Assembly: GCA_903885555.1 (NCBI GenBank)
Contig: CAISIV010000229.1
Location: forward strand, 1-49,454
DNA length: 49,454 nt
DNA from: an uncultured Hyphomicrobiales bacterium
GTDB lineage: Bacteria; Pseudomonadota; Alphaproteobacteria; Rhizobiales; Xanthobacteraceae
Reading direction: 5' to 3'
The notes under the pieces were generated by a model. It saw only the letters and a list, made by a program, of their open reading frames with translations. It had not been told where the DNA came from and searched no databases. Within the stretch, counting starts at the first letter, position 1, and each line of letters starts with the position of its first letter. A program made the position numbers and the translations under genes. Positions 41,335 to 47,544 of the stretch are shown one piece after another.

Positions 41335-42015
41335 TCAGCTCTCGAAGCCTGAAAACGTCGCGAAGGCATCGAGCGGCTCGCGCGGGGAGCGCCAGCCGTT
41401 AATCGGGGCAGCAGAGTCCTCGTAACCGACCGCCATACCCGAATAGACCATCAGGTGATCGGGAAGCTGCAGGAAATCGCGGACGGTGCGGTGGAATGAC
41501 ACCCAGGCCTGCTGCGGACAGGTATGCAAACCGAAATCGCGTGCCAGCAAGGCGACCGTCTGCAGATAGCCGCCAATATCGGCCCATTGCGCCGGGCCAT
41601 GCGCCTTCTCGCGCGCAAAGAATAAAGCGACCGGGGCGCCGAAGAATTCGTAGTTGCGGGCGTACTGCCTGTAGCGAGCCGACTTGTCTTCGCGCGGGAC
41701 GCCGATCGCCCGATACAGTCGTTCGCCGACGTCAAAGCTCCGCTCCCGGTATGGCTCGCTCATAGGCTGCGGATAGATGACGTATTCGACGCCCTCGCCT
41801 TTCGGCAGTTCGGTCGCCATGCGCGGCCGCAGCAGACCTTTAAGTTCCTCGACGCGCTTGCCGGCAACCGCATAGACTCGCCATGGCTGCATGTTGCCGG
41901 CCGACGGCGCGCGCGCCGCTCGCTCGACGATGTCGCGCACGGTCGCTTCGGGAACCGGCGTCGGCAGAAAAGCCCGGCAGGAATATCGGGAGGCTACGGC
42001 TTCACGCACATCCAT
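41335..42015 (-). CDS. Nitroreductase family flavoprotein
   Basis: This 226-aa protein is an FMN-dependent nitroreductase/dehydrogenase-like enzyme that would reduce nitro groups, quinones or unsaturated bonds with NAD(P)H. The FMN-phosphate motif RYSCRAFLPTPV is at residues 9-20, followed by APSAGNMQPW; the later GGYLQTVALLARDFGLHTCP helix and VGYEDSAAPIN strand are typical. GGAG precedes the ATG at 42015 by six bases. It separates the feuPQ-ccm block from the phage-like lysis genes and starts 72 nt from the holin end. Substrate not inferable. Confidence 0.9.
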   Translation of the reverse strand: MDVREAVASRYSCRAFLPTPVPEATVRDIVERAARAPSAGNMQPWRVYAVAGKRVEELKGLLRPRMATELPKGEGVEYVIYPQPMSEPYRERSFDVGERLYRAIGVPREDKSARYRQYARNYEFFGAPVALFFAREKAHGPAQWADIGGYLQTVALLARDFGLHTCPQQAWVSFHRTVRDFLQLPDHLMVYSGMAVGYEDSAAPINGWRSPREPLDAFATFSGFES

Positions 42016-42086
42016 CGGACTCTCCACGGCAAGAAAACAGAACAAGTGTGGAGAGTGTGGCGGTTCAAAGCGCCACTGCCAAGCAG

Positions 42087-42491
42087 TCACTTGCGCGAGA
42101 GTATCCGCGCCACCTTCTCAATGCTTCGCCCGCCGAAATAGGCCGTCAGCACGATCATCGCCCATTGCGCAACGTCACCCGTCAGCGCCGCGGTACTGCC
42201 GAGACCGAGAACCCGATCCCAGACGACGACCTTCCAAATATATATGACGAAGGCAAAGGCAAACAGCGGCCGCGGCAGCGCCGTGAACCATCGCCCCTCC
42301 TCGGCGATGACGACCTGTGTGGCCAGTTCGCGTTCGCGCTGCTCCAGCCCAAATTCACGCGCGGCCAGATCGGCCGCGATCTTCTCGCTCGTGTTTTCTG
42401 ACGTGAGTTTGGCGCGGTAGGCGTCGACCGCGGCTTTGGCGAACGGCCCGCCGAGCAGATTGCCGAGCCAGCCGAGAATGGTCGCGAACAT
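42087..42491 (-). CDS. GTA-type 3TM holin
   Basis: This 134-aa protein resembles the 3TM holin family found in gene transfer agents and their relatives. Residues 1-20 form a hydrophobic start (MFATILGWLGNLLGGPFAKA), a charged amphipathic helix follows (30-60), and two further helices appear at about 75-93 (LFAFAFVIYIWKVVVW) and 105-122 (AQWAMIVLTAYFGGRS). The conserved RWFTALPRPLFAF segment precedes the second helix. Holins make the membrane pores that let the endolysin out. The start lies 1 nt after the stop of the 75-aa gene upstream; with the muramidase it forms a lysis cassette. Confidence 0.78.
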   Translation of the reverse strand: MFATILGWLGNLLGGPFAKAAVDAYRAKLTSENTSEKIAADLAAREFGLEQRERELATQVVIAEEGRWFTALPRPLFAFAFVIYIWKVVVWDRVLGLGSTAALTGDVAQWAMIVLTAYFGGRSIEKVARILSRK

Positions 42492-42721: not shown

Positions 42722-43357
42722 TTATGTCCTCTTGAATGCAGCAAGGATAGTTGAGACCAGGAAACGAAAAAGCCCGCTCGCGGCGGGCTGTTCATGCTGA
42801 GGCTCGGTGAGCGAAGCTGGCGGCGGCGCGGTTGCCGTTGGCCCGGCCATCGCCAGAGCCGTCGCCCTCACCTCGGCGACGCGCCGGCCCCAGCCCGCAC
42901 CGAACACCGGCCATGTCTTCAGAGACTGCAGAAACCGCATTCGCTCGTCGCAGATCGCGACAATGAGCGCTTTGGCGTCGGACCCACGCGCTGCCGCGAT
43001 CACCGCATCATTCACGACGCTTGTGGTGTCGGGCAGCCGTAACACGCGCCGCAGCACCTTGCCGGAACGGCCGATGCCGCTGTTCACGCCATAATCGAAC
43101 ACCGCGTAGTCGACGCCCGCCGGCAATTCGTCGCCACGCTGCGCGTCCCAGTATTTGGCGCGATAGATCGTCTTGGCTTCATCGAGCTTCATCGCCTTGA
43201 CGTCGGCCGCGTTCGCGCCGGGCTTCACGTATTTCCGGTAGTCGAAAATCGTGATGCCGAAATTGGTCGGCCCGCCTGGATCGGCGGGATGGTTGGTGTA
43301 ACCGCCTTCGTGGGCCAGCAGGCGCACGAGCGAAGTATCATAAGTTGATGTGGCCAT
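42722..43357 (-). CDS. GH108-family muramidase (endolysin)
   Basis: This 211-aa lysozyme-like enzyme cleaves peptidoglycan. The catalytic motif is LAHEGGYTNHPADPGGPTNF with Glu17 as acid/base, as in glycoside hydrolase family 108 (N-acetylmuramidase), and the YDYGVNSG-type segment (FDYGVNSGIGRS) plus a C-terminal peptidoglycan-binding part (residues about 95-170) follow. An Ala/Pro/Thr linker and a hydrophobic end (GLFRFLVSTILAAF) resemble a membrane tether. No signal peptide is present, so release depends on the holin. GGAGAGAG precedes the ATG at 43357. It is one of the few GTA-cluster genes that is complete. Confidence 0.88.
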   Translation of the reverse strand: MATSTYDTSLVRLLAHEGGYTNHPADPGGPTNFGITIFDYRKYVKPGANAADVKAMKLDEAKTIYRAKYWDAQRGDELPAGVDYAVFDYGVNSGIGRSGKVLRRVLRLPDTTSVVNDAVIAAARGSDAKALIVAICDERMRFLQSLKTWPVFGAGWGRRVAEVRATALAMAGPTATAPPPASLTEPQHEQPAASGLFRFLVSTILAAFKRT

Positions 43358-43398
43358 AGCTCTCTCCAAATGATTGAGCTAAGCGGGTATCAAAACAC

Positions 43399-44543: not shown

Positions 44544-45992
44544 TCAAAAATACTGGCCGCCGGACGAAGCACCGCCAGCCGTGTTGCCGGGCAGATAGGT
44601 CGCGCTAGCATTGACGAAGATCACGGCGTTCGCGTCAACGCTGTAGCGTGAACCGATTGCCGTCCATGAGAATGTATGTCCCCATGCGGTGATCCCGCTG
44701 ACACGAGATGCGTATGCAAAGTTACTGGAGAATGCTGGCGTACCGCTCAAACTGATCGTCAGTCCGTTAGGATAGACGGTGAGATTGCCACCATCCGTAG
44801 CCCCCCAGTGCGCGGCCGCGCCACCGGAAATTGCGTAGCCCGCACTAACGACGATCTGTGATCCCGTTCCGTTGGCGTAGAGATGGAAGCCAGCGGTGAC
44901 GCCGTACTCCATCTTGCCGACAACTTTAATCGTGGCGCCGCTGTCTACAATAACAGCGTGGCCGCTCGTTGCCGTCTGCACCTTGAAGCCTTGAATTGAA
45001 ATCGCAGCCTTGTTCGAGGCCGAAATCGCATTGGCACCCGTCACCGAGACAACGACATTCGACGGCGTGGTCGTGTCGCCCTTCAGCGTGATGCTGCCGC
45101 CTATAAATGCGTTTGAGATCGAGACGCTACCTGTATAGGTGCCGGCGCCCACCTGAATCGTGACTGCATAGCCGCCGAAATCCAGTATCAGCGCAACATC
45201 GATCGCTTTCTGTATCGTCAGAAAAGCGCCGCCGGATGTATTGGCGAGCCCGTTATTGCTGTTGCTGCCGTCGGTGCGGACATAATATGTGCGATTGGCC
45301 GTCAACAATTCGCGGCCACCGGCAATCGTAGTGTTGGGAAACGTCACCGCGCCGGTCGCGGCGGCGATCTTGATGCCTTCGTACCAGGTCGAGCCGTCGG
45401 GCGAGACCTTGAAATGGAAATCGTCGTCGCCGGTCAGTCCGATTTCGGCGCGCCCGGAATAATTGTCCTGCATGAGCAGCGAGACGGTTTTAGCCGTGCT
45501 CTCTTTGCTCATCTTGGTACGGAGGTTGCCGTCGCCGCCTTCGGCGACGGTCTTGGCCGCCCACAGCGCATTGTTGAGCTTGGCGCTGACACGGTTGGTC
45601 GTATCGGCGGTCGTGCCGACGCCGAGCATCGACAGGTTCTGGATCGCCACCGTCGAAAAATAGTCGCCCCAGGCGCTGCCGCTCCAGACCACCAGCGTCG
45701 CCTCGTCGACGACGAAGGCGACCCAGCCCGTTTGCGGCGCGCTGAATTGCCAGACGCCGTCCTGCCAGGCGGCAATTGCGTTGGCGTGCCCCGCCCAGGC
45801 GCCGGTGGCGCCGGTCTTGACGATCCAGCGCTGGCCTTCGGTGGGCGAGCCCGGCGGCGCGGTGAGATCGCGGTCGAGCACGGCGAGCTGCACTAGCGTG
45901 TCGAGAATGCGCAGCGCGCCGTTATGGGTGACGTGCTTCTGCGCCTGGCTGCCTTCGATGCAAGGCAGCCCGAGATTGGCTGTATCGGTCAT
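44544..45992 (-). CDS. DUF2793 phage/GTA tail-associated protein
   Basis: This 482-aa protein has a DUF2793 domain at residues 1-110 (LGLPCIEGSQAQKHVTHNGA, then PTEGQRWIVKTGATGAWAGH), a family coded downstream of the GTA tail genes. A middle linker (about 130-230) and a C-terminal region (about 245-480) of short Gly/Ser/Thr-rich strands (YYVRTDGSNSNNGLANTSGG, TIQVGAGTYTGSV, SITLKGDTTT) follow; the latter resembles a right-handed beta-helix such as tail-fibre or pectate-lyase-like folds. It would be a receptor-binding or fibre protein. The start is 12 nt from the end of the fused terminase gene. It looks intact, although most of the tail is gone. Confidence 0.8.
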   Translation of the reverse strand: MTDTANLGLPCIEGSQAQKHVTHNGALRILDTLVQLAVLDRDLTAPPGSPTEGQRWIVKTGATGAWAGHANAIAAWQDGVWQFSAPQTGWVAFVVDEATLVVWSGSAWGDYFSTVAIQNLSMLGVGTTADTTNRVSAKLNNALWAAKTVAEGGDGNLRTKMSKESTAKTVSLLMQDNYSGRAEIGLTGDDDFHFKVSPDGSTWYEGIKIAAATGAVTFPNTTIAGGRELLTANRTYYVRTDGSNSNNGLANTSGGAFLTIQKAIDVALILDFGGYAVTIQVGAGTYTGSVSISNAFIGGSITLKGDTTTPSNVVVSVTGANAISASNKAAISIQGFKVQTATSGHAVIVDSGATIKVVGKMEYGVTAGFHLYANGTGSQIVVSAGYAISGGAAAHWGATDGGNLTVYPNGLTISLSGTPAFSSNFAYASRVSGITAWGHTFSWTAIGSRYSVDANAVIFVNASATYLPGNTAGGASSGGQYF

Positions 45993-46004: not shown

Positions 46005-47027
46005 TTAAGGAGTGAGGATCGCACTGGCCGCAAAGCCGCGGCCAACGGTTGCCGACAGTTGCGTCACCTGCACGTTGAGGCTCGTCTGTGGCGCGCCGAA
46101 ATCGGCAAGCTCGCTGGCCGACGCGTAGAGCACACTCGGCGCCGTCGCGGCGAGCGTGCGCACGACGCTGGTGCCGGACAGAATGTCGAGCGCGTATTGT
46201 TCGCTGTCCTCGCCGAGCGGAATTTCGCCGGCCCAGCTGTCGGCGTCGAACCGCGCACGGCGCACCCACTTGAAGGTCACGCCGCTGCCGTCGCGCCGCG
46301 CCGACAGGTGCACCGGCGCGAGCGGCCGCAGCGCCGTCGCCTGCGGCGTCACGCCCAGCGCCAAAGCGCTGGCATCGCCGTGATCGCGATTGGCCGCGAC
46401 GATCCGCAATTGCAACGCCCGCTCCAGCGCGTCGAGCCCGCTGGCGACCGTCAATATATGCTGGTCGAGCAACACAAAGGGCGCGCCCGCCGGCAGCGCT
46501 GCGCCCATCGCGTATTCCGTTCCGCCCTGACGCCACTTGGCAAGTTCATCGAGCCACGCGGCCGAGAATTGCGGCCCGCGCAGGCGTTCGTAATTTTCTG
46601 CGGTGAAGACCTGCGCTATCGCACCATTCTTCCAGCGCAAATATCCGCGCGATGACGTCCACTTCGGCCGTTCGTCGTGGCGATGAACGGCAAGAAGTCC
46701 CGACACGCCCTCGATCATCACTTCGCGCGCGTCGTCTTCGGTCTCGGCGATCAGCGCGATCCGCGCCTTGGGATCGTCCAGGGCAATACCGCGCACCCAT
46801 TCGGCGCCGGCGCGCGTTTTTCCTGCTCCACGGCCGCCGAGGATGAGCCAGGTCGTCCATTCGCGGCCGCTATTGGCGCGCGCGGGCGGCCGTTGATGAT
46901 CGTGGGCCAGAAAGTCGAAGTCGGAGCCGGTCGCCTCAATCCAGTGCGCCTTTTGGCTGAGCAGGAATTCCGGCAGCGCCAGCGCGTCGTGCTTCGAGAA
47001 ATCCCCGAATGCGTCGCGCAAGTTCAT
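46005..47027 (-). CDS. Fusion of large terminase N-half and GTA tail host-specificity C-end
   Basis: This open frame of 340 residues (start ATG 47027; 47075 is also possible) joins two unrelated phage genes. Residues 1-164 are the ATPase half of a GTA large terminase (gp2): Walker A in LILGGRGAGKTRAGAEWVRG, the IALIAETEDDAREVMIEGVS segment and Walker B ending AAWLDELAKW. From about residue 166 the sequence is the C-terminus of the gp15-like host-specificity tail protein: GGTEYAMGAALPAGAPFVLL, later FDADSWAGEIPLGEDSEQY and VQVTQLSATVGRGFAASAIL. The join is in frame. The nuclease half of terminase and about 1,000 residues of the tail protein are missing, so neither original function is expected. 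Confidence 0.85.
   Translation of the reverse strand: MNLRDAFGDFSKHDALALPEFLLSQKAHWIEATGSDFDFLAHDHQRPPARANSGREWTTWLILGGRGAGKTRAGAEWVRGIALDDPKARIALIAETEDDAREVMIEGVSGLLAVHRHDERPKWTSSRGYLRWKNGAIAQVFTAENYERLRGPQFSAAWLDELAKWRQGGTEYAMGAALPAGAPFVLLDQHILTVASGLDALERALQLRIVAANRDHGDASALALGVTPQATALRPLAPVHLSARRDGSGVTFKWVRRARFDADSWAGEIPLGEDSEQYALDILSGTSVVRTLAATAPSVLYASASELADFGAPQTSLNVQVTQLSATVGRGFAASAILTP
46526..46534. other. Presumed deletion junction terminase / tail protein
   Basis: Terminase homology ends at the LAKW codons (W at 46535-46533) and gp15-like homology starts at the Gln-Gly-Gly codons (from 46529). Everything that normally lies between genes 2 and 15 of a GTA cluster (portal, protease, capsid, adaptors, tape measure and tail proteins, usually over 10 kb) is absent. 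The join preserves the frame and leaves no insertion sequence. Confidence 0.75.
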
Positions 47028-47544
47028 TGCGGAATTCGTCAATATCGCGGGGAACGGGGTCGTCGTCGGCGTCATCGGATGGAGTCACTTCGTCGGGTTT
47101 GGTCAGGGCGGCGATTTCGCGCAACGCGCGCGAAATATTGGCGAGCGAGCGGGCGCTGGCGTCGGCTTCGGCCGGGTTATTGGGGTTGATCTGGGCTGTG
47201 ACGCGCTTGATGGCGTCGAGCGCCTCCTCGGTGCCCGTCATCAAACGCTCCACAAGTGCGAGACGCTGTTCGGGCAACAATGGACTGGCGGCAACAAGCG
47301 GCGCCTGCGACTGCCCGGCCGGCGGCGGGCTAGCAGCAACGGCGGCGCCGAGCGCTTTGGCAAATTCGAATGTGCCAACGCGCGCGCGCCGCTTGCGCCA
47401 GGCTTCCTGCCTGACGATCACGTAAAACAGATCTTTCCTGATGCCGAGCATGGCGCAGATGTCATCGACCGGCGCCAGCGTCTGCTCGTAAAGCCGCCTG
47501 GCTTCGGCAAGCAGCTCGGGCGCTATCACTTTCTTGGCGACCAT
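46936..47544 (-). CDS. Small-terminase-like protein (GTA gp1 position)
   Basis: This 202-aa protein sits where GTA clusters have the small terminase subunit, directly before the large one, and overlaps it by 92 nt. Its N-terminus (PELLAEARRLYEQTLAPVDD, then ICAMLGIRKDLFYVIVRQEAWRKRR) is a helix-turn-helix of the homeodomain-like kind seen in packaging proteins that bind DNA. A Ala/Pro/Gln linker (about 60-85) and a long helical region (LPEQRLALVERLMTGTEEAL, and RSLANISRALREIAAL) that could oligomerise follow, then an acidic and a basic tail. GGGGAGG precedes the ATG. The gene looks complete. Confidence 0.72.
   Translation of the reverse strand: MVAKKVIAPELLAEARRLYEQTLAPVDDICAMLGIRKDLFYVIVRQEAWRKRRARVGTFEFAKALGAAVAASPPPAGQSQAPLVAASPLLPEQRLALVERLMTGTEEALDAIKRVTAQINPNNPAEADASARSLANISRALREIAALTKPDEVTPSDDADDDPVPRDIDEFRNELARRIRGFLEARRAGAAGIPAQPKGALD

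Follow-up and report, generated by a model that had tools for sequence, protein, structure and literature searches.

The fused gene at 46005-47075 of the window, as we call the whole 49,454-nucleotide stretch of DNA analyzed here, is very probably what a single deletion, some 13-20 kb long, left behind in an RcGTA-type gene transfer agent (GTA) cluster, as judged by comparison with intact congeners. In all likelihood, at least five separate deletions, this one among them, have occurred in the genus with a common left end, within a few bases, in the large terminase gene (terL). The reading that best covers all observations is that terL contains a deletion hotspot by which GTA producers repeatedly become non-producers, to which we assign a probability of about one half (0.48). 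The common left end suggests either a fixed weak spot or selection for the remainder. The genus of the window and its congeners was taken as Pseudolabrys, of which 43 genomes were searched, including that of the window (G000, a MAG of 95% completeness in 320 contigs). The features of the locus are as follows.

46005..47075, minus strand: fused ORF, terL N-terminal part joined to gp15 C-terminal part (ORF list; Pfam, phrog and NCBIfam profiles)
46529..47027, minus strand: terminase large subunit, N-terminal part, with Walker A GGRGAGKT and Walker B region AAWLDELAKWR; stops short of the TTTPRP region
46527..46530, minus strand: putative deletion junction TGGCGTC|A; a few bases of microhomology leave the exact point ambiguous
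46005..46528, minus strand: C-terminal 173 residues of gp15 (megatron), from profile and congener matches
46936..47544, minus strand: gp1-like gene upstream of terL, in the small-terminase position; named by position, with no confident family match
44544..45992, minus strand: DUF2793 protein after gp15 (profile match; same order in intact G033)
42722..43369, minus strand: glycosyl hydrolase 108 (GH108) muramidase / endolysin (profile match)
42087..42491, minus strand: holin-like ORF (phrog_3427 holin, E 4e-07; no Pfam or NCBIfam match); orthologous to the right-hand partner in G038, G030 and G023
41335..42090, minus strand: nitroreductase bordering the cluster; orthologous to the right-hand partner in G020 and G035

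The fused gene is a single ORF on the minus strand, encoding 356 aa from the ATG at 47075 or 340 aa from the ATG at 47027. Residues 61-167 match Pfam Terminase_6N (E 2.3e-15; 57.3 bits against a cut-off of 22), but only at positions 1-110 of the 215 in the profile. The rest corresponds to the very end of gp15: residues 167-339 match the tail protein phrog_4271 (E 3.2e-41; profile positions 1132-1308 of 1309), residues 167-337 match NF048004 GTA_megatron (positions 1127-1298 of 1299), and PDB 6TBA chain 8A, a GTA protein, matches residues 161-335. Intact gp15 of two congeners (G040 and G022) is 74-75% identical to this half, and the fused ORF as a whole falls short of a full-length megatron (165 bits against the curated NF048004 cut-off of 800). 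Each half thus belongs to its own protein family, in agreement with the in-frame terminase-gp15 chimera proposed in the preliminary description, and no single known protein accounts for both. The join was placed at 46528/46529, directly after the Walker B region and close to the earlier estimate of about 46530; microhomology makes this uncertain by a few bases. The terminase part had been given as residues 1-164; its domain identity is correct, and its end is moved to residue 166. The Terminase_6N domain and both Walker motifs are present by profile and motif reading, intact as first described, whereas the TTTPRP region and the C-terminal nuclease half, present in intact terL genes, are absent from the fused protein. 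We take the Walker A, Walker B and TTTPRP segments to be the terminase motifs of these names.

The survival of start-side and end-side genes was borne out as well, since gp1, the terL N-terminus, the gp15 end, the DUF2793 gene and the lysis genes were all found. The genus-type GTA order and the orthologous locus were confirmed on the right side of the join and at gp1, which is what the orthology comparison covers, as the window extends just 1.9 kb left of gp1. An acyltransferase gene (PF01757; 43423-44481, plus strand) lies antisense between the DUF2793 and muramidase genes and is absent at that place in G033.

To show what is missing, the whole locus was read in the intact congener G033, where the order is gp1, terL, portal (PF04860), protease (PF04586), capsid (PF05065), further ORFs, gp15, DUF2793, muramidase, holin and nitroreductase, several of these genes being named by likeness to those of the window. 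The two points joined in the window are 20,017 bases apart in G033, and in G013 and G032 the match coordinates put the equivalent distance at about 18 and 13 kb, respectively. A large internal deletion is thereby supported, which would have taken the terL C-terminus, the portal, protease, capsid and tail genes and most of gp15. Neither profile searches for the capsid (PF05065) and portal (PF04860) nor a search with the capsid protein of an intact congener gave a match in G000; as a positive control, that congener's own capsid and portal do match the two profiles. The earlier statement that the capsid and tail genes in between are gone, with no intact head block elsewhere in the genome, therefore holds directly for capsid and portal, the two genes covered by this search, and would extend, by comparison with intact congeners, to the protease and other tail genes. 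With capsid and portal missing, the lineage would no longer be able to make GTA particles. A search with the gp15 half gave no second match in G000. Apart from the fused gene, terminase is matched there only by a different terL, complete at its C-terminus, on a 5-kb contig (C218, locus L041) that ends just after it. This is a second gp1-terL pair of GTA/prophage type, for which no capsid or portal was found in the assembly either.

The intact G033 cluster (L269/L270) also carries possible cargo. ORFs o5-o6 and o10-o11, which lie between the head genes, have a DQPRVPxGNPxGGQW leader and HNH-like ends (DHHIVE..., FILDHQIP...), with a small ORF after each; by eye they resemble toxin-immunity pairs, and o5 and o10 have no Pfam match. 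Antisense cargo in L269 comprises a methyltransferase (o8, PF08241) and a trypsin-like protease (o14, PF00089); a relative of the methyltransferase is also found downstream of the protease fusion in G012.

A terminase search of 150 relatives gave matches in 117, with short terminase frames in several congeners. We read 52 terL genes (51 loci plus the window) from 33 of the 43 genus genomes and from other genera; among the other ten genus genomes, eight had no match, and G031 and G036 matched but their terL genes were left out of the reading. Terminase identity is lost right after DELAKW-R in seven of the 52 (G000, G038, G030, G023, G012, G035 and G020), so that terL is broken at the same base, TGGCGTC|A, in 7 of the 33 Pseudolabrys genomes read, that of the window included. 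Seven terL genes with DELAKWK were also read. The right ends, aligned base by base to intact relatives, differ: the partner is gp15 in G000, the prohead protease in G012, the last 41 codons of the holin in G038, G030 and G023, and the nitroreductase, at two different points, in G035 and G020. A nitroreductase match at 1e-60 is present in 37 of the 43 genus genomes and absent from G035 and G020, the remaining misses being G007, G021, G024 and G027. Upstream genes of at least G030, G023, G035, G012 and G020 are common to intact G006, G009, G022 or G040, and gene order downstream of the joins is as in intact G033 where contigs reach far enough; just 2.9 kb (window) and 1.3 kb (G038) of sequence lie left of the join in the other two. 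Insertion of a gp1-terL module was rejected, as the flanks are common to intact genomes where readable.

Outside this set, all 26 IMG/VR loci with the motif read on as terminase, with no further broken case, and so do 29 of 30 motif loci in genome_contigs, the thirtieth being G038 itself. Three of the loci that read on (L123, L214 and L226) end early, but further along. A short terL frame in another genus (G097) was rejected as a parallel because its break comes later, at a different site.

The broken label needs at least five changes on the terL tree (33 rows), and the different right ends likewise imply at least five separate deletions; as the right ends of the sister genomes G000 and G038 are not the same, six is the more likely number. 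A single deletion may underlie the holin join of both G030 and G023, and some of the changes on the tree could be regain of an intact copy instead of deletion. If left ends were spread evenly over the 1.4-kb gene, the chance that five further ends fall within 5 bases of the first would be about 3e-11. Against a hotspot, the site is undamaged in every one of the five congeners assembled in 1-4 contigs, and G034 (L240, 2151-2460) has an out-of-frame gp1::holin deletion with another left end. The terL of G009, for its part, has a stop near its start and an internal deletion. Given the damage in G034 and G009, decay is general in the genus, and what is special is that seven damaged loci have one terL base in common. 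One contig of G019 (C375, L239) stops no more than about 2 bases from the holin breakpoint of G038, G030 and G023; it may be an unassembled further case, or chance.

The hotspot reading draws further on the DNA immediately right of the break. Synonymous divergence of terL, compared among 18 intact congeners, is at its lowest in the 30-40 codons there. Of 388 intervals of 30 codons, the one that begins at +1 relative to the break codon has the smallest value, 0.154, where the mean is 0.330, and none of 2000 column shuffles was as low. Among eight divergent genomes the same interval ranks 5 of 381, with 6 of 2000 shuffles as low and the minimum at +9. GC3 of the first ten codons right of the break is 0.49, compared with 0.84 overall, and neither the divergence dip nor the GC3 drop is seen there in 21 control terL genes. 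The predicted fold consists of two hairpins, GCCAAGTGGCG...CGCCTTGGC and CGGCCGCGGC...GCCGCGGCCG. Its energy is lower than that of synonymous recodings in all 18 congeners (z -1.8 to -3.9; G009 row left out), and a single sequence folded as DNA gave z -6.0 against dinucleotide shuffles. Two observations count against the hairpin. Recoding also weakens the fold in 15 control terL genes (z from +0.8 to -4.6, averaging about -1.7), two of which, G054 and G075, are almost identical to the genus in this sequence, and the break is inside the 5' arm of the first predicted hairpin and not at its base. In a scan along the gene, the two intervals right of the break averaged -1.88 and -3.04 in 11 congeners versus -1.19 and -0.72 in 11 controls.

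Evidence for selection on the pairing itself was sought in substitutions. Two-sided compensatory changes occur in 1 of 28 pairs, with a covariation term of 0.14. Third positions differ in the expected direction, at 0.160 when paired and 0.235 when unpaired, but not significantly so (p 0.063, with one misplaced row left out; control 0.419 and 0.383). Perfect inverted repeats of equal or greater length lie elsewhere in terL in many congeners, so that a hairpin alone does not pick the break site, and perfect hairpin length failed as a mark of it. No known structured RNA was found at the site in the three loci scanned against Rfam, where matches were sub-threshold and elsewhere only.

On this basis, we tentatively suggest that replication stalls, or a strand breaks, at the hairpin-forming stretch of terL, and that the free 3' end ...GGCGTC(A) would then re-prime or be joined at short downstream microhomologies. 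The predicted outcome is a set of deletions with a fixed left end and a variable right end. As for the joins themselves, every one can be written as TGGCGTC|A on the left, except that G020 reads TGGCGGC and G023 continues with G, and the microhomology, judged by eye, is roughly 1-8 nt. All seven preserve the reading frame. As counted over nine downstream genes of G033, the C falls in codon position 1 in 31% of CA, 21% of TCA and 13% of GTCA occurrences, and the in-frame share rises to 55% for CAG and 79% for CAGG. In-frame joining is therefore unexpected for CA, TCA and GTCA microhomology and expected for CAGG, of which the joins in G000 and G012 may be cases. As a cause of in-frame joins, codon periodicity is accordingly supported for CAG and CAGG and unsupported for the other three.

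One alternative is that selection picks the join. Here, deletions would occur anywhere and be kept if gp1 and an in-frame terminase fragment ending near DELAKW-R remain, the fragment being useful, for example by blocking packaging by phages or GTAs. We consider this rather unlikely. It would account for seven in-frame joins out of seven, against an expectation of 0.13-0.79 depending on the microhomology assumed, and for the presence of Walker A and the Walker B region in all seven broken terL genes. However, the expected in-frame rate where CAGG is the microhomology lowers our confidence in it, and the ends agree to the base, which is finer than a protein domain limit should need. Moreover, the fragment is without the TTTPRP region and the nuclease half, its C-terminal partners have nothing in common, and there are stops in two related remnants, in terL of G035 just before the site and inside gp1 of G030.

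Between G030 and G023, dN/dS is 0.16-0.22 for terL (147 codons, dS 0.28) and 0.07 for the 41-codon holin tail, so that purifying selection has acted on the fusion ever since the deletion, if the two descend from a single one. On the other hand, nine intact terL pairs (two G009 pairs left out) give similar values of 0.15-0.39, and older constraint could explain the ratio if the deletions are recent. For the gp15 half of the window, dN/dS is 0.21 against G040, 0.32 against G022 and 0.36 against G036, compared with 0.13-0.31 for intact pairs; its relaxation appears at most slight. The preliminary description had asked whether the product is kept for a new use or is recent debris and proposed a dN/dS check of the fused frame. 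The check gave the above values, which do not separate retention from debris. The fusion that remains is probably inactive in packaging and a transitional product, and some lineages may have kept it for a time.

A second alternative, which we regard as distinctly unlikely, is a site-specific enzyme (a homing endonuclease, recombinase or transposase) that cuts terL at TGGCGTC|A; faulty repair would give the deletions, and repair by homologous DNA would spread the flank and produce the low-divergence tract. It would explain why the left end is fixed at base level, and why low synonymous divergence and odd codons start at the site in the genus but not in the 21 control terL genes. Against it, no intein, intron or inserted element was found at the break codon in the terL genes read. 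Patterns taken from both sides of the site occur in 28 of 43 and in 26 of 391 genomes without array-like extra matches, most of these places coinciding with terminase matches (one of the former set and about eight of the latter were unchecked). Cas1 is present in 3 of the 43 congeners and in none of the seven broken genomes, and CRISPR-Cas3 self-targeting deletion was rejected on the same ground. Finally, metagenome mis-joins at a stretch conserved among co-occurring relatives are very improbable: the assemblies with a broken terL are split into about 70 to 680 contigs, few-contig congeners are intact and the G019 fragment ends near the holin breakpoint, but the right partners share only a few bases with the left-hand sequence, leaving no overlap able to drive mis-joins, flanks are syntenic where readable, and seven different genomes all have in-frame joins.

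If the deletion point is indeed fixed, loss of GTA would be predictable, and non-producers could be counted in metagenomes by one junction. It would also allow a direct test of loss by mutation bias versus selection on the remainder, and would be a natural example of a conserved gene whose codons conceal a mutation hotspot. A stronger version, which we put forward as doubtful, is that terL hosts an embedded DNA site conserved beyond coding needs, a recurrent break point that acts as a built-in off-switch. In that case, cutting or stalling at the site would delete the head and tail genes, and the resulting non-producers would keep gp1 and an in-frame, ATPase-like terminase fragment.

With regard to known systems, the locus resembles the RcGTA-like head-tail cluster (gp1-gp15) in having gp1, the terL N-terminus and the gp15 C-terminus, followed by DUF2793 and lysis genes, but its middle part is missing, and it is a remnant instead of a functional cluster. 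Deletions at DNA secondary structures with microhomology are a known mechanism. The join in the window is similar in its short microhomology and in an end at a strong predicted hairpin, whereas the proposed Pseudolabrys hotspot differs in lying inside a conserved protein gene, with one fixed end, across species. Among the literature titles and abstract openings searched, nothing was found on a shared terL breakpoint or on Pseudolabrys with a gene transfer agent, which leaves absence unproven, and the available parts of PMC7947584 contain no mention of deletion, truncation, hairpin or synonymous sites. According to the abstract of PMC9765227, GTA production lyses the producer cell, so that the persistence of producers against non-producers is in question, and the passages seen of PMC10883770 treat it as an open question. 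The same passages describe pseudogenized 'cheater' GTA lineages, in which production was likewise lost by cluster damage in several alphaproteobacterial lineages; they describe neither a breakpoint common to separate cases, nor terL fused in frame to another gene, nor a conserved structured part of terL. As far as these passages go, the Pseudolabrys locus fits the 'cheater' description and adds a repeatable route to GTA loss.
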